The translations under genes and the position numbers were made by a program. From Acidovorax sp. GBBC 1281 (GTDB lineage: Bacteria > Pseudomonadota > Gammaproteobacteria > Burkholderiales > Burkholderiaceae_C), in assembly GCF_028473645.1 (NCBI RefSeq), contig NZ_CP097269.1:2188001-2252000 (forward strand): DNA of 64,000 nt, read 5' to 3'. The first letter of the stretch is position 1. Each line of letters starts with the position of its first letter. Of the stretch, positions 3,124-24,681 are shown piece by piece. The notes under the pieces are model-generated. The model saw nothing but the letters and a program-made list of their open reading frames with translations. It made no database searches and was not told the DNA's origin.

Positions 3124-4809
3124 TTACTTGTCCGAGTTGTCCAGCTTGGCGCGCAGCAGGGCGCCCAGGCTGGTCGTGCCGGCGCTTTCGCGGCTCGATT
3201 GCTGGCTCAGGTTGGCCATGGCGCCTTGCTCGTCGGCCATGTCCTTTTGCTTGATCGACAGCTGGATGTTGCGGGTCTTGCGATCCACGTTCACCACCAC
3301 GGCCGTGACTTCGTCGCCTTCCTTGAGCACATTGCGGGCATCTTCCACGCGGTCGCGGGAGATTTCCGAAGCGCGCAGGTAGCCGATGATGTCTTCGCCG
3401 AGGTCGATTTCAGCGCCACGGGCGTCCACGGTCTTGACCTTGCCGGTCACCGTCTGGCCCTTGTCGTTCACCGTCACGAAGGTGGTGAATGGGTCGCCGT
3501 CGAGCTGCTTGATGCCCAGCGAGATGCGTTCGCGGTCCACGTCCACGGCCAGCACGATCGCTTCGACTTCCTGACCCTTCTTGTAGTTGCGAACGGCGGC
3601 TTCGCCGGTTTCGTTCCAGGACAGGTCGGACAGGTGCACCAGGCCGTCGATGCCGGCAGCCAGACCCACGAACACGCCGAAGTCGGTGATCGACTTGATC
3701 GGGCCCTTGACGCGGTCGCCGCGCTTGGTGTTCTGTGCGAACTCTTGCCATGGGTTGGCCTTGCACTGCTTCATGCCCAGGCTGATGCGGCGCTTGTCTT
3801 CGTCGATCTCGAGGACCATGACTTCGACTTCGTCACCCAGCGACACGAGCTTGGAAGGAGCGATGTTCTTGTTGGTCCAGTCCATTTCGGAGACGTGCAC
3901 CAGGCCTTCGATGCCGGGTTCCAGTTCCACAAATGCGCCGTAGTCGGCAATGTTCGTGACCTTGCCGAACAGGCGGGTGCCCGAAGGATAGCGGCGCGAA
4001 ACGCCCATCCATGGATCGTCGCCCATTTGCTTGAGGCCCAGGGACACGCGGTTCTTTTCGGTGTCGAACTTGAGGATCTTGGCCGTGATTTCCTGACCGG
4101 CCGTGACCACTTCCGAAGGATGGCGAACGCGGCGCCATGCCATGTCGGTGATGTGCAGCAGGCCGTCGATGCCGCCCAGGTCCACGAACGCACCGTATTC
4201 GGTGATGTTCTTGACCACGCCCTGAACGATGGAGCCTTCCTTGAGGGTTTCCATCAGCTTGGCGCGCTCTTCGCCCATGGAGGCTTCCACCACCGCGCGG
4301 CGCGACAGCACCACGTTGTTGCGCTTGCGGTCGAGCTTGATGACCTTGAATTCCAGGGTCTTGTTTTCGTAAGGCGTCAGGTCCTTGATCGGACGCGTAT
4401 CGATCAGCGAACCTGGCAGGAAGGCGCGGATGCCGTTGACCAGCACCGTGAGGCCACCCTTGACCTTGCCGCTGGTCGTGCCGGTGACGAATTCGCCGGA
4501 TTCCAGGGCCTTTTCCAGCGCCAGCCAGGAGGCCAGGCGCTTGGCGGTGTCACGCGACAGGATGGTGTCGCCGTAACCGTTTTCGATCGAGCCGATGGCC
4601 ACGGAGACGAAATCGCCCACTTGGACTTCGACTTCGCCCTTATCGTTCTTGAACTCTTCCAGGGGCACGTAGGCTTCGGACTTGAGGCCGGCGTTCACCA
4701 CGACGAAGTTGTGTTCCACGCGCACGACTTCGGCGGTGATCACTTCGCCCGGACGCATTTCGGTGCGTGTCAAGGACTCTTCGAAAAGGGCGGCAAAAGA
4801 TTCAGACAT
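3124..4809 (-). CDS. rpsA: 30S ribosomal protein S1
   Basis: The 561-residue protein has six S1/OB-fold repeats. Successive copies of the pattern [38 protein letters not shown] and [18 protein letters not shown] are visible, and the start [13 protein letters not shown] is typical for betaproteobacteria. S1 binds mRNA leaders on the small subunit and is needed to initiate most mRNAs. Length matches the family (about 557-570). It is preceded by the aroA-cmk fusion and followed by ihfB, an arrangement conserved from E. coli (cmk-rpsA-ihfB). The upstream gap of 183 bases is expected to hold its own strong promoter, but I cannot pick one clear site. Confidence 0.97.
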
Positions 4810-15262: not shown

Positions 15263-15651
15263 GGGGCTGCCCTGGTTTCGACGTGGGTTCGGAATCGGCG
15301 TGGTGCATGTCGAGCTTGAGTGGCGCTCGTAAATCTGCATTCAAAAAACTAACTGCAAACGACGAACGTTTCGCACTCGCACTCGCCGCTTAAAAACCGG
15401 TGATCGAGCCTTGTAACAGCATGCTAGCGGGCTGGGCAAGGGGGTCGCAAGACCTCCCGGCTGCAAGGTTATTCACGCTGGCTGGTTCCGTGCCGGGTAC
15501 CTTGGCATGGAGCGAGATCCAAGGGTACTGGTGACCCACGTAGCGTGCGACTGCGCGACGTGGGCCATGAGAATCAAAACAGACCGCTAAACATGTAGAT
15601 CTGCCCGAAGAAGGCTTGCGGACGCGGGTTCAATTCCCGCCAGCTCCACCA
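15263..15651 (+). ncRNA. ssrA: tmRNA
   Basis: One-piece tmRNA of 389 nt. The 5' end GGGGCTG pairs with CAGCTCC at 15641-15647, followed by discriminator A and CCA at 15649-15651. The T-arm is CGGGTTCAATTCCCG just before. The tag reading frame resumes at GCA (15355) and ends at TAA (15391-15393), encoding ANDERFALALAA. With SmpB, it rescues stalled ribosomes and tags the nascent chain for proteolysis. The element inserted at its 3' end restores the terminal 19 bases, so the RNA itself is intact, but its original terminator is now 9 kb downstream (24688-24727). Confidence 0.97.
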
Positions 15652-15653
15652 CT
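15635..15653 (+). repeat. attL, 3' end of ssrA
   Basis: 19-bp direct repeat copy covering the end of the tmRNA T-stem, acceptor stem and CCA plus CT. The identical copy is attR at 24663-24681. The bases just outside differ between the copies (T versus C on the left, T versus C on the right), defining the core exactly. Confidence 0.93.
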
Positions 15654-15743
15654 TTTATAACTCGTTGCTTTTAAAGGATTTTTTAGGGTACGGTTACACA
15701 ACCACTGCGGGGAGACACTAAAGGGCACACTTGGAGCCCATGA

Positions 15744-17480
15744 ATGCTGTCCTCGTCGTACCTTCAAAAATCTCGCAACGGCGTTTACTTCGCGCGGTTT
15801 GTTGTTCCTGCGCGACAAAGAGTCCCTGCCGATGGCCGGGACTTCAAACTTTCTACTGGCACCAAGGACCCGCGCCACGCTAAGGCGGCAGCGCGCTATT
15901 TGCGGGTTCTTTTCGACGCCTTCTTGATGGAGAATGCAACAGTTACGCGCGCCAGCGCGGTTGCTTTCCTTCAAGCGCGCATGAAAAAACCAACAGTACC
16001 GCCCATGCCCTTTGGGGTGAAGATAAAGGGGCAGGGATTCGACATTGAGCTGACCGACCTTGGCCCCCAGGATGTGGGCAACATGGACCAGCTCATCGAG
16101 AACGTGACCCGAGGCGCCGCAAGGATTGCACCTTCAACCATTGCGGTTTGGGACCGGCCTTCCGATGAGCCGACCCCGCCAGACCATGCCCCGGCCATCA
16201 ATGAGCCTGGGCGCCTATCGCCCGTGGCAGCAAAGACCGTGGGCCGGTTGGTCAAAGAGTATTTGAAGTACGAGCAGGACCGGGCTACTGAAAAGGAAAT
16301 CGGCGTCAAGAAGGTGCCCCAAATCCGCACCCGCCTGAAACCCTTCATCGACCGTTTCAGCGCTCGGCATGTTGGCACCCTCACGCCTTTGGACTTGGAG
16401 CAGTACCGCAAGGACTTGGCGTACTACCCAAAGAACATCGACAAGTTGCCAGGGGCCGGGGGACTGCCTTTCGATACGCTCATCCAGAGGGTGCGCTCCA
16501 AGTCGCTTTTCCGGGCGAATGGTCAGCAAGCCCAGACCATCACGCAGAACACCTTGGATGGCTACCTAACCGTTGCGGCCAACTTTCTGGAGTTTTGCAA
16601 ACGGCAGTACGCCGTCAATCCAACCCTGTTGGAGGGATTCAAAGTGAAGACAACTCAGGCCCGCAAGGGTGCATCGCGGCGCGCCTTCACTCAGAAGGAA
16701 ATGCAGCAAATCTTCGGGTCGGACTACTACCGGGATGGGGCATACAACCGCTCCTATCAGTATTGGGTCATCCACTTGGCAGCGTTCACCGGAGCGCGCG
16801 TCAATGAGCTCTCGCAACTGACCACCGACGATGTTCGGCAGGACGATGAAGGGCTATGGTTCCTGAACATCACGGCAGCGGAAGACGACGGCCAAAGCGT
16901 CAAGAACGAAGAGAGCCGCCGCATCATTCCGGTGCACCAAAAGCTCATCGACCTGGGGTTCATCGACTATTGCCAAACCAAGAAGTCCGCAGCCAAGGAT
17001 AGGGCTGTCAACTTGTTTGACCTCAACCGGGCCAAGGCCGATGGTTACGGGAAGGCTGCGAGCCAGTGGTTCAACACCAAATACCTGCGGGACTATTTGA
17101 AGATTGAAGACCCGAATGTGGTGTTTCACTCGTTCCGTCATCGGTTCATCAGCTCGCTGGCTCAAGCCATCTTGGACGCCTCGGGCGTATCGGAGGAAAC
17201 GGCCATCAAGGAGCGTATCCCCGAGGCCCTGATTCTTCGTCGCCTTGCTGGTCACTCCGTGGCCCATGCTATGACGGCAGGCCGTGGACAGTTCGATGTC
17301 CACACGGATACCTACACCGGGGCTTTTTCGGTCAGGAGTATGAAGCGGGTAATTGACCGTCTCAATTATCCCGGCGTCGATTTTTTTACCTACATATCTC
17401 CGAGCACTTCTTCGCGAAAGAGAGTTCGCAAGGTTGCTAATGAGCCTTTTGAGGTCTTCTCGTTAGACGGTCTTGTTTAG
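15744..17480 (+). CDS. int: Site-specific tyrosine recombinase (element integrase)
   Basis: 578 residues. The C-terminal catalytic domain shows the tyrosine-recombinase residues: Arg in FTGARVNELSQL, HxxR in HSFRHRFIS, His/Gly in RLAGHSVAHAM and a probable nucleophile Tyr in THTDTYTGAF-like VHTDTYTGAF. The N-terminal half (YLQKSRNGVYFARFVVPARQR ... KLSTGTKDPRHAKAAARYLR) resembles the arm-binding region found in integrases that use tRNA or tmRNA 3' ends. It is longer than lambda-type integrases (about 350-400), mainly in the segment before the core-binding domain. GGAG lies seven bases before ATG. It would catalyse integration and excision between the 19-bp att repeats. The 3' end overlaps the mobC-like gene tail-to-tail by 18 bases. 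Confidence 0.93.
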   Translation: MLSSSYLQKSRNGVYFARFVVPARQRVPADGRDFKLSTGTKDPRHAKAAARYLRVLFDAFLMENATVTRASAVAFLQARMKKPTVPPMPFGVKIKGQGFDIELTDLGPQDVGNMDQLIENVTRGAARIAPSTIAVWDRPSDEPTPPDHAPAINEPGRLSPVAAKTVGRLVKEYLKYEQDRATEKEIGVKKVPQIRTRLKPFIDRFSARHVGTLTPLDLEQYRKDLAYYPKNIDKLPGAGGLPFDTLIQRVRSKSLFRANGQQAQTITQNTLDGYLTVAANFLEFCKRQYAVNPTLLEGFKVKTTQARKGASRRAFTQKEMQQIFGSDYYRDGAYNRSYQYWVIHLAAFTGARVNELSQLTTDDVRQDDEGLWFLNITAAEDDGQSVKNEESRRIIPVHQKLIDLGFIDYCQTKKSAAKDRAVNLFDLNRAKADGYGKAASQWFNTKYLRDYLKIEDPNVVFHSFRHRFISSLAQAILDASGVSEETAIKERIPEALILRRLAGHSVAHAMTAGRGQFDVHTDTYTGAFSVRSMKRVIDRLNYPGVDFFTYISPSTSSRKRVRKVANEPFEVFSLDGLV

Positions 17481-17741
17481 CGGCTGGGTAATACTCACAT
17501 GCTCCGGTATTTGAGCATCTTCGAAGGGGCGGGGCTTGTCACCCTTAGCGGTCGCCCAGGCCTTTTTGAGGATGTTGTGAGCCTGAGGGTCATTAGCCGC
17601 CAACTTAAGTAGGGCGCCTCCCAAAGCGTATTTTCTAGCGTCTGAATTTTTTCTGGCGGTGGTGGATACCTTTGCGAGGATTGCAGCTTTCTCAGCGTCA
17701 AGTTGGCTCAATCGCTTTTTCATGGCAGTTATACTGGTCAT
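17463..17741 (-). CDS. TraD/MobC-like relaxosome accessory protein
   Basis: A 92-residue basic protein. An N-terminal helical region of coiled-coil type (MKKRLSQLDAEKAAILAKVSTTARK) leads to DARKYALGGALLKLAANDPQAHNILKKAW, a pattern I recognise from small TraD/MobC-type proteins encoded divergently next to MobA/MobL relaxases (for example TraD of Ti plasmids). Such proteins help the relaxase at oriT. The divergent relaxase gene at 17898 and the palindromes in the 156-base gap support the role. The assignment rests on pattern and position and is not certain at sequence level. Confidence 0.7.
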   Translation of the reverse strand: MTSITAMKKRLSQLDAEKAAILAKVSTTARKNSDARKYALGGALLKLAANDPQAHNILKKAWATAKGDKPRPFEDAQIPEHVSITQPLNKTV

Positions 17742-17761
17742 GCTATAAATCTCCTTTTCGT

Positions 17762-17806
17762 CCTATTAAATTACCACTTTATTTTTGATTGTGCTAATTT
17801 AATAGG
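17762..17806. promoter_or_regulatory. 11-bp inverted repeat between mob genes (operator or oriT part)
   Basis: CCTATTAAATT at 17762-17772 and AATTTAATAGG at 17796-17806 form a perfect inverted repeat around a 23-base spacer. It is AT-rich in contrast to the surroundings and sits 21 bases upstream of the mobC-like start. It is likely a binding site for a relaxosome or regulatory protein. Confidence 0.55.
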
Positions 17807-17871
17807 GTGAATATCCCGAGCGCGTTAATCAGTCCCAGCCCCCAGGTAGCCCCCTGCAAGGGCTCACTTAT

Positions 17872-17890
17872 GCAAACTCTGCGAGTTTGC
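17872..17890. other. Candidate oriT hairpin
   Basis: GCAAACTC and GAGTTTGC form a perfect 8-bp stem with a 3-base loop, preceded by a smaller repeat AGCCC/GGGCT at 17848-17864. It lies between the divergent mob genes, where MobA/MobL-type oriTs are usually found. The nick site itself cannot be assigned by eye. The hairpin is only 7 bases before the first ATG of the relaxase frame. Confidence 0.45.
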
Positions 17891-17897
17891 GTTCGCC

Positions 17898-19340
17898 ATG
17901 GGCTGTGCCCCTGGACCCCGTTGCTTCGCAATCGCCCCGGGGGGTGCTGTGCCTAGCCTCGCCACTTGGTTTACCCCCTCGCTGCAAGTCTTGCAGCGCT
18001 CCAAAGGCCGTAACGCCGTCGAGGCGGCTGCGTACCGCTCCTGCACTCGGCTGAGCGAGGAGCAGCTAGGCGAGGTGCACGACTACCGCCGTAAGACTGG
18101 TCACGTCTGCACCGAACTGTTCGGTGTTGCCGGTCTTGAAATGGGTTTGGATGATATCGGCACCCTATGGAACAAAGCCGAGCGGGCAGAGACTCGAAAG
18201 AACTCGGCTATCGCCCGCGAGTTGATGGTGCCTCTCGCGCACGACTGGACGGACGAGCAGCGCCGACTTTGCGTGCGTGGCTTGTCCGAAATGCTGGTGG
18301 CCCGCTACGGGGTTGCGGTGATGGCTTCCATCCATCGCCCGGCCAATGGGCAAAACGACCATGTCCATATTTTGTTCACCACCAGAGAGGTGGATTCGCA
18401 AATGACCTTCGGCAAGAAGACCCGCATCCTGGACGACATGAAGACCGGTGAAGTGAAAAACATGCGGGAGGAGGTTTGCCGCATCATGAACGAGCACGCC
18501 AAGGCCAACGGCGCCGACTGGTATGTGTACGCAGGAAAGTTTGCAGAGGTGGTCGAAGGACACATTCCCACGGCTCATATTCCGGTCAATGCCCCCCGCG
18601 AACTGCGCGAGACTATGGAAGCGGAAAACCTGGCGATTGTGGAGGCGCGCCCCCTGCTCAAACGCATCATGCAAGAGTCGAAAGAAACGGCCGCGCAAGT
18701 GGAGGCAGCGTTGCAGGTCGCCGCAAGCGCGGCAACCCAAGAGCACCAGATTGTCAAAGCGGAAGTGCCCCGAGAGCGTCCCTCACGTCTGCCACCTGTT
18801 CCCAGCACAAGCCCATTGGGCGAGGACGCCCAACAGCGGAAATTGCAGCTCACGAATTCCCTTGACCTTCGTCAGGCCTTCCGTGAGGTAAGGCGGACTG
18901 ACGCCAAGCGAAAAGAGGGGCGCGAGGTGGCAAAGAAATGGAAGGAACGCCTCCGCGCACTGAAAGCCGACCCACCCGGACCGCTTGTCTCCATCATGTC
19001 CAAACTGGCTCGTGCCTTGGGCGTCCGGGACACCGTGGCGATTTACGAAGAAAAATTAGCCGAAGCCCGGGCGGCTATCGAGCAATGCAGGAAGAACGAC
19101 ACCGCCTGGACTGCGTACATCAACGACCCAGAGCGCAAGCGCAAATATGACGAGTGGAAGCAATGGCCCGAGCACCGCGAGCGGGTCAAGGCGTACGAGG
19201 CGACGTTGCCCGATGCTCCCCGTCCCAATCCGGTGCCCGGACCAGAAGACCACAGCGCAACCCCGTCCAGCACTTGGAATGGCCCTTTCACTTTTACGCC
19301 GCACCAAACGCCAAAGATTCCCGAACCGTGGGAATGGTGA
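17898..19340 (+). CDS. mobA: MobA/MobL family relaxase
   Basis: Up to 480 residues. Motif I region RSKGRNAVEAAAYRSC, then WNKAERAETRKNSAIARELMVPL, and the metal-binding motif HRPANGQNDHVHILFTTREV (HxH) are hallmarks of the MobA/MobL relaxases. It should nick the element at oriT through a tyrosine and lead the strand into a recipient. The C-terminal half is charged and helical, with no primase motif. The start is uncertain: the ATG at 17898 has no ribosome site and overlaps the candidate oriT, while an in-frame GTG at 17949, preceded by a G-rich stretch, would give 463 residues and a more usual N-terminus. Confidence 0.88.
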   Translation: MGCAPGPRCFAIAPGGAVPSLATWFTPSLQVLQRSKGRNAVEAAAYRSCTRLSEEQLGEVHDYRRKTGHVCTELFGVAGLEMGLDDIGTLWNKAERAETRKNSAIARELMVPLAHDWTDEQRRLCVRGLSEMLVARYGVAVMASIHRPANGQNDHVHILFTTREVDSQMTFGKKTRILDDMKTGEVKNMREEVCRIMNEHAKANGADWYVYAGKFAEVVEGHIPTAHIPVNAPRELRETMEAENLAIVEARPLLKRIMQESKETAAQVEAALQVAASAATQEHQIVKAEVPRERPSRLPPVPSTSPLGEDAQQRKLQLTNSLDLRQAFREVRRTDAKRKEGREVAKKWKERLRALKADPPGPLVSIMSKLARALGVRDTVAIYEEKLAEARAAIEQCRKNDTAWTAYINDPERKRKYDEWKQWPEHRERVKAYEATLPDAPRPNPVPGPEDHSATPSSTWNGPFTFTPHQTPKIPEPWEW

Positions 19341-19410
19341 GGAAGTGCTTCAATTCGCTTTCAGAATCGCTTGGTGCTGGACTATGCATCGCGCCGTTAA
19401 GTGGCGCAGT

Positions 19411-20430
19411 TCACAACCAAACTGTGTCTTGGTGCCAGTTCGCCGGTATGCCCATGGCAAAGAGGTGCGCTGGTTTGTTGGCTTCTGGATGTGCTGCAAG
19501 GAGGGCGAGCAATCCGTCTTTTATCCCGTCGAAAATTCCGAGCTTTTTACTCATCAACCGAAGAACTACGAGCGCTGCATAGACGGTATTCGTTTTTGGT
19601 GCTGATGAACCAGGGTGAACCGTCGGAAATGGAATTGAAACTTTGCTAGTAATTCCGTTTGGCGCCAGAATGTTTTTATTCCAAAGTCTTCCATGGTGCG
19701 CACATATATTCCGGATGGCTCGCAGCATCTTTACCCATGTGCGCAAGTCCTTGTACTTCTCCGCTCCCATTCGGTTTCTTGCCATTTTGTCCAGGACAGT
19801 ACTGCATGGTATCGTCGGAGACGAGGCGGGAAAGCTTGGCGCAGCTTCATCTAGATTTGCATAAAACTCGTAGAGCTGTCCTATAGTGGAAAGCTCAAAA
19901 AGTACCCAAAAAGGTGGTAGGTGCTTGTAAATTCCAGATACGTTATTGAAGTAAGTTTTCTGGAAATGTTGAGCGTAATTTTCACTCGAATCGCAAAAAG
20001 AACTGCTAAGTGAATTTATTATACGATTCGGATGCTTTTTACTGGAAAACCACTGTGGTTGAAGGTACCAAAATCCATGGCCAGCAGATTTGCACATAGT
20101 TGCGTCAAGGACTGTTCTGAGCGCAACCTCTATGTCCGGCATCAAGTTGAAGATAAGCTTCTTCAATCCTTCATCAAAGCGGTACATCTCCAAAGCCTGC
20201 TCAAACGTTGAGCCAGCCTTGAAGTTCTTAGGAGCCGGTGCCGCTGGGATGTTTACCAAGTCGAGGTACGGGTATAGGTACCCTCGAAATCGAAAGTAGT
20301 TGACGCGACCCAATAAGTCGCTGGCTTTGGTCACATCACCGATGAGGAGTCCCTGTGCACGAAGTTTGGCTACAACGTCAGGAACTGCCAGGGGATGCTT
20401 GGTGTACGGCTTAAAGCTTAAGGTGGCCAT
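19411..20430 (-). CDS. Abi_2 (AbiD/AbiF-type) HEPN abortive infection protein
   Basis: 339 residues starting MATLSFKPYTKHPLAVPDVVAKLRAQGLLI, then RVNYFRFRGYLYPY and FDEGLKKLIFNLMPDIEVALRTVL, the standard order of the Abi_2 family (PF07751). Near residue 240 is RAIRNICAHHGRLWN, matching the HEPN ribonuclease pattern Rx4-6H. Members cause abortive infection by RNA cleavage and are related in fold to the HEPN domains of Cas13. The gene stands alone against the direction of its neighbours and is more AT-rich than they are. It has 532 bases of non-coding upstream DNA rich in hairpins, which may encode an RNA partner. Activity is not shown by sequence alone. Confidence 0.88.
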   Translation of the reverse strand: MATLSFKPYTKHPLAVPDVVAKLRAQGLLIGDVTKASDLLGRVNYFRFRGYLYPYLDLVNIPAAPAPKNFKAGSTFEQALEMYRFDEGLKKLIFNLMPDIEVALRTVLDATMCKSAGHGFWYLQPQWFSSKKHPNRIINSLSSSFCDSSENYAQHFQKTYFNNVSGIYKHLPPFWVLFELSTIGQLYEFYANLDEAAPSFPASSPTIPCSTVLDKMARNRMGAEKYKDLRTWVKMLRAIRNICAHHGRLWNKNILAPNGITSKVSIPFPTVHPGSSAPKTNTVYAALVVLRLMSKKLGIFDGIKDGLLALLAAHPEANKPAHLFAMGIPANWHQDTVWL

Positions 20431-20686
20431 TGCCCAAAAGAAAAGCCACTGGGTACCTCAAAAGTGCTTGCGCACTTTCTTGGCTTGAACCCAGCAGCGT
20501 TGTTGCAAGCATCTTAACGCAGTCCAGCCAAAAGTTCAAGAGCCCGACCGCCGAGTAGGGGCATCCGTGCTCCCCTTACCTGCCAAAGGTCTGTTTGGTG
20601 TCCAGCTGGTGAGGCTTCTTCCCGTCGCACTGCGCCGAAGATTGCCAAACAGTGTGATCAACGATGATATCAGTTTGGCCGCCTTG

Positions 20687-20754
20687 GGAAGAATAGGAAT
20701 ACTCCGACAAATGGTTTCAGGAAGAATAGGAATACTCCGACAAATGGTTTCAGG
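20687..20754. repeat. Two perfect tandem copies of a 33-bp unit
   Basis: The unit at 20688-20720 (beginning GAAGAATAGGAATACTCC, ending GGTTTCAG) is repeated without change at 20721-20753. The pair is flanked by two copies of TGATATCAG (20665-20673 and 20756-20764). The identity suggests recent duplication or a protein or RNA binding array (iterons). Confidence 0.9.
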
Positions 20755-20831
20755 CTGATATCAGGATGGCTGCCTGCCCTCATCATCACTTGACCCTGCC
20801 CACCCTCAATTGGTAAGTTGATTGGACAAAG

Positions 20832-20861
20832 AAAAAGGCCCGCACGGGGCGGGCCTTTTTT
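20832..20861. terminator. Bidirectional hairpin terminator
   Basis: AAAAAGGCCCGC and GCGGGCCTTTTT enclose a short ACGGG loop, giving T-runs on both strands. On the + strand it would end a transcript from the 20.4-20.8 kb region before rep. On the - strand it would shield Abi_2 from upstream transcription. A terminator here implies a transcription unit within the non-coding region. Confidence 0.8.
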
Positions 20862-20962
20862 ACTGCACCTTCTTTTAGCCGGGAAATGCAGTACAGGGAA
20901 CAAATCCATGATACTAATTCATCGTTCATTGTCAAGTAAACAAGTCGGCGCGAAAGCCGGCG

Positions 20963-22153
20963 ATGTCGCTTGACCAAAAAACACCATCGAAAACGAGCCC
21001 TAATAGGCCGTATATCCGCGTTTCAACCGCATCGCGGCTGATGGCAGGCTATTACCACCGCAACGGCGAAAATCTCAGGGGTTCGTCGGTTGTCGGCTGC
21101 GGTCGTTGGCGCGCCTTCGGATTCGACTCCACTCACGCGGAAATTGAGGTTGGCGCAGACGGTACGAAGCTCCACGGCCACTTCAAGTGCGGCAACGTCT
21201 GGACCTGCGACCAGTGCGCCCGCGCCAGAGTCTCGCAGGCCCGTTCGTGGATTCGTGCTGCCTTAATTCCGGCATTGGAGGCCCATGGCTTGGGGGCAGC
21301 AATGATGACTTTTACCATGGCCCACAGCTACGACGGCAACTGGAAGGATTCCATCGACCTACTGCACGCTGCCTTCAAGCTCTTCGACAAGAACATGTCC
21401 AGGCGCTACAAGGCAATCGGCTGCATGGGCAAGCTGAAAAGCTTGGAAGCGCCGGTAGGTGTCCATGGTATCCATGGCCACTTCCACGTCCTTCTAACCC
21501 ATCTTCTTGGGGCAGATTTGACCGCTTTCGAAGCCCTTGCCCGCGCCGAGTGGGAAAAGGCCGTGGCGCAGGTGGGCGGCAAGTGCAATGACCACGGCTT
21601 TGACCTGAAACTGAACGCCATGGCGGACTATCTCGCCAAACAGGAATTGGCTCACGAAATGTCCAACCACGACACCAAGAAGGCGCGCAAAAAGGGGTTG
21701 CTGTTGGGGCAATTGCTGGACCGCGCAGGCCGAGGCGATGCCAAGGCATCCGCCGAATGGCTGCGCGCCATCGAAGCGCTGCAAGGTCGTAGCCGGTTCC
21801 ACGCTGGCGATATTGCCAAGAAATTGGGCATTTCGACATGCACAGCTTGGGAGGATGAGGAGCGCCGGGAGGAGAGGGAAAGCCTCTCCGCTGACGCGCC
21901 CGAGCCAGTGCGCATTGCGTATCCGATGCGCGACCACCTGACCGCGACACGTCCCGACTCCTCGCGCCCAGGCTTGGCGATGATTCTGCGCGCAGCGAGA
22001 GACGGCGACGCCGCGAAGGTGCTGCAAATGGTGGCAGCCCTATGCCGAGAGGTGAGGGCGCGTAACCGGCGAACGCCGGGCAGTGCCCCGCCGTCCTTCT
22101 GGGATTGGCCGGACGACTACTTCGACCAGTTCATTACGTCCGTCACAAGCTAG
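20963..22153 (+). CDS. rep: Rolling-circle replication initiator (Rep_1 type)
   Basis: 396 residues. A cysteine knuckle, CGNVWTCDQCARARVSQARS, is followed by motif I (MMTFTMAHS), motif II (GIHGHFHVLL, metal-binding His cluster) and motif III (ADYLAKQ, catalytic Tyr with Lys), the order of the Rep_1/pC194-type initiators. It nicks the double-strand origin and starts rolling-circle replication. Its presence means the excised element could replicate as a small circle. The upstream non-coding region is the natural place for its origin. The 3' end overlaps the next gene tail-to-tail by 11 bases. Confidence 0.9.
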   Translation: MSLDQKTPSKTSPNRPYIRVSTASRLMAGYYHRNGENLRGSSVVGCGRWRAFGFDSTHAEIEVGADGTKLHGHFKCGNVWTCDQCARARVSQARSWIRAALIPALEAHGLGAAMMTFTMAHSYDGNWKDSIDLLHAAFKLFDKNMSRRYKAIGCMGKLKSLEAPVGVHGIHGHFHVLLTHLLGADLTAFEALARAEWEKAVAQVGGKCNDHGFDLKLNAMADYLAKQELAHEMSNHDTKKARKKGLLLGQLLDRAGRGDAKASAEWLRAIEALQGRSRFHAGDIAKKLGISTCTAWEDEERREERESLSADAPEPVRIAYPMRDHLTATRPDSSRPGLAMILRAARDGDAAKVLQMVAALCREVRARNRRTPGSAPPSFWDWPDDYFDQFITSVTS

Positions 22154-22955
22154 GCTTCACGCCCCTGTTCTGTTGGTCTTGGACCCGTTTGCGGGCATCG
22201 GCCTCGCTGCCCGCGCTCTTGCCGTCGATGGCTCGCAGGATGGTGGCGGAGTCAATGGCCCTCAGGGCTACTGCCTCTACCAGCCCGTCGCTATCGTGAG
22301 TCCATTCGGCGTAATACGCGCGGCTGCACGAGCGCTTGAACTCGGATGGCAGGATGATGGACATAGGTTCAGGAAGGAAGTTGTCCCCACCCGTGGGGTT
22401 GGACCCAATCCTCACGAGGTCGAACATCCGGCACGGTGCTGCCGGTATCGCAGCGCCCGTAATGGTCCGTCCCCCTTCGGAGTACGGGCCGAAGAACTGC
22501 TTTCCGTCCTGGTCAAACTCCCACCCAACCACTATGGCACCGAGCTTGTCGCCCATCTCACCTTTGATGAAGCTCTCTTTGCCGAATTTTTTCCGAACGG
22601 CTTCCAGCAGGACTTGGCGCGTGTATCGCGCGGTCTTTGGTAGGCGCTGATTTTTTTGAACGAACCAGATGCTGTCGGCGTGGCCCTTGAATGCCGCGAA
22701 CTCATCGAGTGGCCCACTCCACGAGTTGTCGTAAAGACGCTCCCCTTGCCAGGCGGCAAGGCCGCTCTCAATCTTGTTGGTGTAGATCGGTATGACCTTC
22801 ATCTGTGCTGGTCTGCCAAAGGCCGTTTTTGCCTCTCCAACTGACATCCCCAGTTTCACGCCAGCAATGTCGGTGGCGTGTGCGCCGAAGCTAAGCAGCG
22901 CGAGGGCAACGCCAGTCGCAAGGACCGCACGTATTTTTTCGACGATAAAACGCAT
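22143..22955 (-). CDS. Secreted protein of unknown function
   Basis: 270 residues with a clear signal peptide (MRFIVEKIRAVLATGVALALLSFGAHA, cleavage likely after AHA). The mature part starts TDIAGVKLGMSVGEAKTAFGRP, a pattern seen at the start of various periplasmic proteins of unknown role. Two Cys residues (APCRMF, KRSCSR) could form a disulfide. I do not recognise the family. It follows a small lipoprotein gene by 9 bases in the same direction, so the two probably form an operon of the element. Role unknown. Confidence 0.75.
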   Translation of the reverse strand: MRFIVEKIRAVLATGVALALLSFGAHATDIAGVKLGMSVGEAKTAFGRPAQMKVIPIYTNKIESGLAAWQGERLYDNSWSGPLDEFAAFKGHADSIWFVQKNQRLPKTARYTRQVLLEAVRKKFGKESFIKGEMGDKLGAIVVGWEFDQDGKQFFGPYSEGGRTITGAAIPAAPCRMFDLVRIGSNPTGGDNFLPEPMSIILPSEFKRSCSRAYYAEWTHDSDGLVEAVALRAIDSATILRAIDGKSAGSEADARKRVQDQQNRGVKPSL

Positions 22956-22964
22956 CTTGCCCCC

Positions 22965-23099
22965 TCAGTCCGCCATGCCGTTAGAGCCGGTCGCCCACGG
23001 AAGAGGCTGAACGTGTGATGCCGGGCCATGTGTCGGTGTGTTGGGGGTTGTGCAGCCTAACAAGGCTGCAAAGGCGAAGGCAAGGATTGCCAGTTTCAT
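22965..23099 (-). CDS. Small predicted lipoprotein
   Basis: 44 residues from the ATG at 23099: MKLAILAFAFAALLGCTTPN, a typical lipoprotein signal with lipobox LLGC, then a short Pro/Thr/His-rich tail. AGGAGGTC lies 7 bases upstream, a strong ribosome site that favours this start over an in-frame upstream codon at 23153. Small lipoproteins in mobile elements are sometimes entry-exclusion or lysis-type proteins, but nothing here proves that. It is probably co-transcribed with the secreted protein gene downstream. Confidence 0.7.
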   Translation of the reverse strand: MKLAILAFAFAALLGCTTPNTPTHGPASHVQPLPWATGSNGMAD

Positions 23100-23166
23100 G
23101 AGCGATGACCTCCTGTTAACGATGGCGGCACCACGCCGCAACCAGGGGCGCATCGTAGCTCAAGAA

Positions 23167-23181
23167 AGTCGTGTTACGACT
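23167..23181. promoter_or_regulatory. Palindrome upstream of the XRE gene (probable operator)
   Basis: AGTCGT-GTT-ACGACT is a perfect 6-bp inverted repeat, 20 bases before the XRE start and between two divergent genes. The size and place suit a helix-turn-helix dimer controlling itself and the divergent lipoprotein gene. Confidence 0.55.
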
Positions 23182-23201
23182 ATTCCGCTTAAGACTAAAT
23201 C

Positions 23202-23474
23202 ATGCGGGGCATGTCTGCCTCTCTTTACCACGCGAACTACGATGACCTGCGCGCGCTGTTGCGCGCGGTGCGCGTCAAAGCCGGGCTGACGCAGGTGCAG
23301 ATGGCCGATGCCCTTGGGGTGGGGCAGTCCTATGTTTCGAAGCTTGAGCGAGGCGAGAACTTCGTGGACGTTCTTCTGTATGCGAGGTGGTGTCAAGCTT
23401 GCAGCACAAAACCGGGGATAGTTCTTGACCAGTTGCTTGAGAGGTCTGTCAACGTGAAGAAAGTCGGCGACTAG
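23202..23474 (+). CDS. XRE-family helix-turn-helix regulator
   Basis: 90 residues. The HTH_3 domain is clear: LRALLRAVRVKAGLTQVQMADALGVGQSYVSKLERGE, with the recognition helix at GQSYVSKLERG. The tail (VDVLLYARWCQACSTKPGIVLDQLLE) follows the usual small XRE form without an effector domain. ATG at 23211 (MSASLYH) is an alternative start. It lies 53 bases before the TIR gene in the same direction, so it may control that gene, and it has a palindrome at its own promoter. Confidence 0.88.
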   Translation: MRGMSASLYHANYDDLRALLRAVRVKAGLTQVQMADALGVGQSYVSKLERGENFVDVLLYARWCQACSTKPGIVLDQLLERSVNVKKVGD

Positions 23475-23527
23475 AAGGCATCCCGCCTGCCAACTTGCAC
23501 TCTGGGCCTGGGTGAGGCTGGGTTAGA

Positions 23528-24460
23528 GTGTTGGAAAGGATGGGAGTTATGTTCAACTTGCTTGTAACTGCAGATGAAAACGGTTGGTCCGGTCAACCGA
23601 CTACCTTTGCGCTAAGTCGTTGTGTGCGCGAGTACACGGATGCCGCGATTACAGAAAGACTTGGCTCGTTGGATGAAGCCAGCGCAGCGGAGTTGATGAG
23701 CATCCCATCGGTTTTTGCTTACGAAGAAGGCGTGGGGAAGGCACCGAAGTTCGGAAGAATTACAGGTGTCAGCAAAAGGTCGAATCGTATGGAAGTGCGC
23801 GTCGACTATGAATTTATTCATCTCCCCAAGTTCTTGACGAACGAAGAATTGTGGTCGATGGGGGCTGAGCTTGACCTGGGTAGTTGGGAATCCTCGCGCA
23901 CCCATTGGGCAGTCAAAGATGTAGATTTGGCGCGTGAACTACTCCCGAAGGGCGTACTGCTTCCGGCGCAATTCGCTTCCCAGCGTCAGACAACTGCCGG
24001 GGTCCCCAGGGTTGACATCACCGCGCATCGTTTTCAAGTAGCTTTTTCGTTTCCAGGCGAGTACCGAGCGTTAGTAGAGGCGGTGGCGAGGGAGACTACA
24101 GCGCTGTTGGGTGCGCATGCCTGCTTCTACGATATGAACTATCAGGCGCAGCTAGCTAGGCCTGGGCTCGACCTGCTGCTTCAAGATTTGTACGCCCAGC
24201 GTTCTAGGCTTCTTGTCGTGTTCATCGGTGCGGACTACCAGCGCAAGATGTGGCCAAATATCGAGTGGTCCGCGATTCGCGCAGTCATGAATGTCGCCAA
24301 GGAGAAGGGTCGAATCATGTATGTGCGTATGGATGACGGAGCCGTGGAAGGTGTCTTTCCGCAGGACGGCTTTATCGACGCACGCAGGTTTACTCCTGCG
24401 CAAATTGCTGCCTTCATTGCTGAGCGAGTGGAGTTCACTCCCGGTCTACCTCCGGTCTAG
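23528..24460 (+). CDS. TIR-domain protein with unknown N-terminal domain (candidate NADase defence effector)
   Basis: 310 residues. The C-terminal part from about residue 175 is a TIR domain: HRFQVAFSFPGEYRALVEAVA (beta-A/box 1), CFYDMNYQAQLARPGLDLLLQDLYAQRSRLLVVFIGADY, and KMWPNIEWSAIRAV, which places a Glu where bacterial TIR NADases have the catalytic one. The first 160 residues (FNLLVTADENGW ... SRCVREYTDAAITERL ... LMSIPSVFAYEEG) form a separate mixed alpha/beta region that I have seen only in front of effector domains and cannot assign; it is probably the sensor. Bacterial TIR proteins deplete NAD+ on phage infection. It is the last gene of the element, behind an XRE regulator. Confidence 0.85.
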   Translation: MLERMGVMFNLLVTADENGWSGQPTTFALSRCVREYTDAAITERLGSLDEASAAELMSIPSVFAYEEGVGKAPKFGRITGVSKRSNRMEVRVDYEFIHLPKFLTNEELWSMGAELDLGSWESSRTHWAVKDVDLARELLPKGVLLPAQFASQRQTTAGVPRVDITAHRFQVAFSFPGEYRALVEAVARETTALLGAHACFYDMNYQAQLARPGLDLLLQDLYAQRSRLLVVFIGADYQRKMWPNIEWSAIRAVMNVAKEKGRIMYVRMDDGAVEGVFPQDGFIDARRFTPAQIAAFIAERVEFTPGLPPV

Positions 24461-24662
24461 TCCGTCGGCGCTGACCTGCAACCAAGTGCCCAAATTGCAT
24501 TTCGCGGAATTGAACCCAAGTCCGTGTGGCACACCGTGGGATACACTTTGGGGGCACACTTTTCAACGCCCTCGACGTGCCTAACGTAGTGGAGTTTTGT
24601 GGCTCAGCTCTAAGTTGTTGAAAATAATGGTTTTTTAGGTGGGGGAACACTCGGGACTTGGC
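24461..24662. other. Right end of the element, non-coding
   Basis: No gene is seen. An ACACT-GGGG-CACACTT block at 24543-24561 resembles one at the left end (15715-15732), and GGTTTTTTAGG at about 24629-24639 resembles GGATTTTTTAGGG at 15676-15688. These are probably integrase arm sites. The last bases before attR (CGGGACTTGGCTCCCG) imitate the tmRNA T-stem-loop that the insertion interrupts. Confidence 0.5.
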
Positions 24663-24681
24663 TCCCGCCAGCTCCACCACT
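24663..24681 (+). repeat. attR
   Basis: Second identical copy of the 19-bp core found at the ssrA 3' end. The chromosomal sequence to its right begins with the displaced ssrA terminator, which confirms the junction. Confidence 0.93.

Follow-up and report, generated by a model that had tools for sequence, protein, structure and literature searches.

Does the DNA in front of an Abi_2 gene of Acidovorax sp. GBBC 1281 encode an RNA that controls the protein? The window (the whole stretch of 64,000 nucleotides that was analyzed, NZ_CP097269.1) contains this gene on the minus strand, and 532 bases separate its ATG (20430) from that of a Rep-like ORF on the plus strand (20963). A sequence-only reading had proposed that the interval 20431-20830 belongs to an RNA-controlled HEPN toxin-antitoxin unit. 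This stood for ~20436-20540, where comparison supports it well, and not for the whole interval, in which some of the distal sequence looks Rep-linked. The best-supported reading, and a likely one, is a two-part toxin-antitoxin or abortive-infection unit of the AbiF type, with a HEPN toxin neutralized by RNA (Table 1).

Table 1. Features of the Abi_2 gene and of the gap between it and Rep (window coordinates).
Feature	Position	Strand	Basis or remark
Abi_2 / AbiF-like HEPN protein, 339 aa, candidate toxin	19411-20430	minus	Abi_2 profile, motif, predicted fold
HEPN catalytic motif R240-N-x3-H245	19696-19713	minus	alignment
U-tract UUUUCUUUU, candidate intrinsic terminator / attenuator	20436-20444	minus	5 nt before abi ATG; similar arrangement in relatives
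Nested hairpin, candidate antitoxin RNA core	20445-20498	minus	z -4.0; the hairpin search that picked the relatives' RNAs finds it too
GCAACAAC, predicted RNA 5' end	20499-20506	minus	AA[CT]A-type element before stem
Predicted -10 TAAGAT	20511-20516	minus	17-nt spacer; lies in 24 nt that differ from L003 at 1 base
Predicted -35 TTGAAC	20534-20539	minus	below promoter-scan threshold
Two 33-bp perfect tandem copies holding GGAAGAATAGGAATACTCC, Rep-origin-like, outside the toxin unit	20687-20752	plus	plasmid matches
Strong promoter-like site, two stems and terminator; second small RNA candidate, unrelated-looking	20826-20935	minus	z -4.5

The Abi_2 protein and the hairpin in front of its gene

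The protein, the only Abi_2 match in the genome, scores 137.3 bits with the Abi_2 profile (cutoff 25.6). R240, N241 and H245 are nearly invariant across protein alignment A1, and the motif aligns with an RNSCCH stretch of PbAbiF that would correspond to residues 210-215; the PbAbiF R210A+H215A variant is described as inactive in PMC12373285. The predicted fold matches that of PbAbiF (PDB 8vz6) over 292 of 297 residues, at 24-27% identity. The literature on AbiF antitoxin RNAs and Cas13 to which the sequence-only reading had referred does exist (RCd22/AbiF of C. difficile, PMC12373285; AbiD/F and Cas13, PMC12165695), and AbiF-RNA pairs have been proposed as ancestors of Cas13 and its crRNA (PMC12165695; PMC12737573). 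The Foldseek and VIA lists contain no Cas13 chain, which is not evidence against kinship.

The gene lies in a putative mobile element. Sixteen bases of the tmRNA 3' end recur as a direct repeat at 24664-24679. This suggests that an integrative mobilizable element of 9,044 bp, 15636-24679, has integrated at the tmRNA gene. The genes of the element encode a tyrosine integrase, a MobQ-like relaxase, Abi_2, Rep, an HTH protein and a weakly TIR-like protein. A 310-aa protein with a sub-cutoff TIR_2 match (23528-24460) adjoins the HTH gene and is possibly a second defense gene of the element.

In the gap itself, which had been noted as free of genes, the four overlapping ORFs of at least 60 aa have no match in Pfam and PHROG except one at chance level (E 0.079). 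The nested hairpin that had been seen directly 5' of the Abi_2 start is present on the minus strand and goes beyond chance, with an MFE of -32.3 kcal/mol that none of 200 shuffles reaches. In a scan with 60-nt windows (step 20, both strands, 19000-23000) it gives the lowest z (-5.6), followed by 19920-19979 (minus, z -5.2) inside the Abi_2 gene. The outer stem pairs 20489-20498 with 20445-20454 (10 bp, two G-U), and the hairpin ends 14 nt before the ATG of abi, on the same strand. The RNA occurs once in the genome. The proximal promoter match is weak (8/12, counted by hand), and the RNA would be expected to start near 20504, given the position of the -10. Comparable elements recur in front of other Abi_2 genes: of 87 hairpins, 58 have AA[CT]A no more than 10 nt ahead of the stem, 36 have CAACA there, and 59 have a -10-like hexamer (at least 4/6) at a distance of 9-30 nt, vs 65 of 261 control stretches; the window's hairpin is in each of the three counts.

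The distal part of the gap

The second bulged hairpin proposed at ~20560-20665 does not hold up, being no better than shuffles on the two strands (z +1.03 and +0.45). A bidirectional terminator-like inverted repeat does exist, with perfect arms of 12 bp (20832-20843 / 20849-20860). Two features had been overlooked, the 33-bp perfect tandem repeat and a promoter-like site at 20935-20908 (minus). The repeat contains a 20-bp element that recurs beside Rep homologues on plasmids GU722199.1 (19/20) and NZ_MN657134.1 (18/20), and it is a candidate double-strand origin. No Abi_2 gene was listed in GU722199.1 (whole) or in NZ_MN657134.1 (all but ~2.7 kb).

From this it could be argued that the entire region functions in rolling-circle replication, as an origin whose structures serve Rep rather than Abi; the distal terminator also bears a weak, sub-threshold resemblance to ctRNA_p42d. 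However, the matches to the Rep plasmids that exceed chance size are limited to the repeat, the other parts of the gap giving just short pieces of chance size. Moreover, L003, an Abi_2 locus, shares the stretch that runs from the -10 up to the stem, and the layout CAACAAC-stem-U-tract-ATG is that of other Abi_2 loci. An origin spanning the whole region is therefore very improbable.

The candidate at 20935-20826 faces away from Rep. Presumably, by analogy, it may be an antisense or counter-transcribed control RNA of Rep, which we take to be its likeliest reading.

It could also be the antitoxin itself, in a promoter-RNA-terminator-gene layout such as that of RCd22: its promoter matches at 11/12, it forms two stems (z -4.5) and it lies on the strand of abi. 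Nevertheless, it ends 400 nt from abi with Rep-linked sequence in between, whereas in most relatives compared the RNA lies within ~150 nt of the start codon, and the DNA of 20400-20960 shows no similarity to the plasmid collection. An antitoxin encoded at this distal site is accordingly a far-fetched alternative to the proximal hairpin.

abiF RNAs in homologous loci and the divergent clade

A scan of the gap with Rfam gives sub-threshold matches only, terminator-like for the most part. At the Rfam cutoff, RF03085 identifies an abiF RNA upstream of Abi_2 and on the gene's strand in four of the 20 loci compared within the bacterial family, a set that includes the locus of the window. A wider comparison started from 151 loci with a usable start, which after removal of duplicates and of two loci without a hairpin gave 117 hairpins, window included; 66 of these passed a score and motif filter, 44 entered alignment A2 and 27 entered A3. 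One covariance model, R1, was discarded, its 3' arm not being aligned by MAFFT. Model R2, built on the 27 abiF-type RNAs of A3, has 10 pairs, 6 of them with changes on both sides; these RNAs were picked for equal 3'-bulge length, so that their 100% paired cells are partly by construction. The cut-off of R2 was placed at 30 bits. In the genome that contains the window, R2 peaks just below this, at 29.7 bits, on a plain terminator; weaker matches were left uncounted because short ones can be plain terminators. At 30 bits R2 recognizes 75 of 100 homologue loci and 16 of 65 further ones; with the seed loci set aside the counts become 50 of 75, some of them near-copies of seeds, and 14 of 63. It misses 38 of 54 viral-contig loci and all 11 plasmid loci. 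An RNA structure at the position upstream of abi is conserved in many relatives.

Such a hairpin might be a mere leader attenuator or terminator that limits abi in cis, with an RNA that does not bind the protein. The strong stem, followed at once by U-tract and ATG, would fit this function, and RCd22 is described as also acting in cis through early termination (PMC12373285). However, besides stem and U-tract the canonical relatives keep the interior motifs GCCUC...GCGCAC, and both RCd22 and AbiFr are described as binding the protein. Attenuation alone is thus unlikely, though less so than a distal antitoxin or an origin spanning the region.

In some loci a single Abi_2 gene is accompanied by two abiF RNA matches (L062:495-553 and 1206-1264; L089:2684-2750 and 2929-2995; L105:360-421 and 661-716; L083:2898-2950 and 3979-4033). 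Beside two related proteins, the abiF-like RNA carries an additional long arm in its interior (L009:1391-1473, L029:2424-2501); both are weak R2 matches (23.0 and 17.4 bits).

The window RNA resembles RF03085 in its place upstream of Abi_2 on the same strand, its AACA-type 5' end, its GC-rich outer stem and its U-tract followed by ATG. In contrast to the canonical RNA, in which an inner 3-bp helix (CGC/GCG) follows a 1-nt 5' bulge and the large bulge is a 6-nt one on the 3' side, the predicted window fold lacks these features and has a 4-nt 5' bulge (UCAA), a GCC/GGU helix, a 2x2 internal loop and a GNRA-capped apical helix (20460-20479), with no 3' bulge. RF03085 does not match it at the 37-bit cutoff, nor at E up to 10. 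With R2 it scores 9.6 bits (E 0.29 in 3 kb), and over the whole window R2 does not list the proximal hairpin, the distal terminator being its best match (21.5 bits). Covariation in homologous upstream regions, which the sequence-only reading had named as a check, is clear in canonical abiF RNAs and modest in five clade relatives described below, while the score of the window RNA with the canonical model is not significant.

This divergence is shared by related loci. The relatives with DNA that score closest to the window (L003, L030, L205-L209 and L212) give no RF03085 match at E up to 10 in any of the eight, and R2 finds L205 only, at 21.2 bits, below the 30-bit noise level. A tree was built from 54 proteins (18 of P0001-P0030, 7 of the 11 plasmid loci, the window and 28 chosen other loci, without L005 and L006). 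The window, these eight loci, L211 and 18 protein-only relatives form a clade of 28 in it (support 100/100, stem length 1.62). Among the 26 proteins outside the clade, R2 reaches 30 bits in 18 and not in 8, so that divergent or unrecognized RNAs occur elsewhere too. The label 'variant' needs 4 changes on this tree, because proteins with unseen RNA were left unlabeled.

A hairpin and U-tract stand at the same position in members of the clade from gamma-proteobacterial plasmids. The RNAs of L030 and L205-L208 have in common an outer stem of ~6 bp, a short inner helix and an apical helix; those of L209 and L212 fold differently and were left out of alignment A5. In the five RNAs of A5, which fold alike, pairing holds for 97.8% of cells, and both sides have changed in 3 of 9 pairs; 13 of 500 shuffles are as high. 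Counted from the -10 up to the stem, 23 of 24 bases agree with L003, although the proteins are 32% identical, and the L003 RNA, like the window's, has a 5'-side bulge ending in CAA. The L003 hairpin ends ~200 nt before the protein match, with an in-frame ATG 52 nt after the hairpin; the placement of L003 in alignment A4 was wrong and is disregarded.

The near relatives P0001-P0028 (45-92% identical) are known here as proteins only, and near-clade covariation rests on back-translation, in which the protein leaves third codon positions free. Eight relatives in A1 have an annotated start at least 4 residues upstream. Seven of the eight extensions (8-35 residues) are codon-compatible with the hairpin 3' end RYGGCTTTT, against a rate of 3.4% in 4470 control segments, each 14 residues long; those of P0022 and P0028 fit CAACAACGC as well (controls 0.54%), and the eighth, from the distant P0030, is compatible with neither. 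Outer stems are possible in P0022 (9 bp) and P0028 (11 bp), and 229 and 113 of 3000 random peptides, respectively, reach as much. These back-translated stems and 3' ends are supportive of the hairpin rather than proof of it, the stem tests being weak.

Close-relative DNA was not found by a single-protein search, and the best 80 of 568 relatives from a search with alignment A1 are all at most 33% identical. Identity is at most 29% in 54 viral-contig loci and at most 27% in 30 phage records; all 405 plasmid records are below 60%, and among the matches listed at most 34%. In four overlapping genome samples (family, 299 and 399 genomes; order, 399; class, 369), full-length relatives other than the window itself stay at or below 32% identity within the E limits applied. 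A DNA pattern of the RNA hit 40 places in viral contigs, none with an Abi_2 relative better than E 3.5 by tblastn, and these hits were put down to chance.

Proposed control of the nuclease and its meaning

The protein family, predicted fold, catalytic motif, hairpin, its conserved position and its 5' block are established here, and the predicted short hairpin RNA probably keeps the anti-phage-type toxin off. In the likely AbiF-type unit, the promoter at 20539-20511 would give an RNA of ~69 nt that folds as the hairpin, and most transcripts would stop at the U-tract just 5' of the abi start codon. The accumulated RNA would bind the AbiF-like dimeric HEPN ribonuclease and keep it inactive, as PbAbiF and AbiFCd suggest. 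A minority of transcripts would read through and yield protein, so that termination would also cap its dose. A phage or plasmid event that lowers or disturbs the RNA would then free the nuclease and arrest the cell.

The kind of system is already known; the RNA of this branch is unrecognized by the public model RF03085. PbAbiF-AbiFr (PDB 8vz6) is alike in protein fold and in the aligned catalytic R and H; in contrast, nothing in the window RNA obviously corresponds to the inhibitory single-stranded bulge described for AbiFr in PMC12737573. In C. difficile phi027, AbiFCd-RCd22 shares the order of promoter, short RNA, terminator and Abi_2 gene, with proposed co-transcription, but the RNA contains two abiF motifs and starts 168 nt from the ATG (PMC12373285), as opposed to one hairpin and ~74 nt from the predicted start here. 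Type III toxin-antitoxin systems (ToxIN, CptIN, TenpIN) also place an RNA antitoxin upstream of an RNase toxin with a terminator between them. In contrast to these, the unit has no antitoxin repeat array: it has one hairpin, and the sole tandem repeat of the gap is Rep-linked. Type III systems known earlier are stated to differ from AbiFCd-RCd22 in their toxin and antitoxin structures (PMC12373285). A literature search, with subscription papers mostly outside its reach, found no description of this divergent-RNA variant.

With its position and 5' block conserved but its bulge on the other side, the RNA is possibly an antitoxin of a new structural form. Tentatively, and with somewhat more doubt than confidence, we suggest that the clade (beta- and gamma-proteobacterial, several members on plasmids or mobile elements) swapped the canonical abiF RNA for structurally different antitoxin RNAs without the single-stranded 3' bulge, toxin and RNA being re-specialized together. 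If so, these RNAs would inhibit the nuclease through other contacts, scans with RF03085 would miss part of the family, and the window would hold a natural orthogonal AbiF-RNA pair. A reshaped RNA beside an unchanged protein fold would then illustrate how control by RNA can be rewired in a HEPN nuclease.
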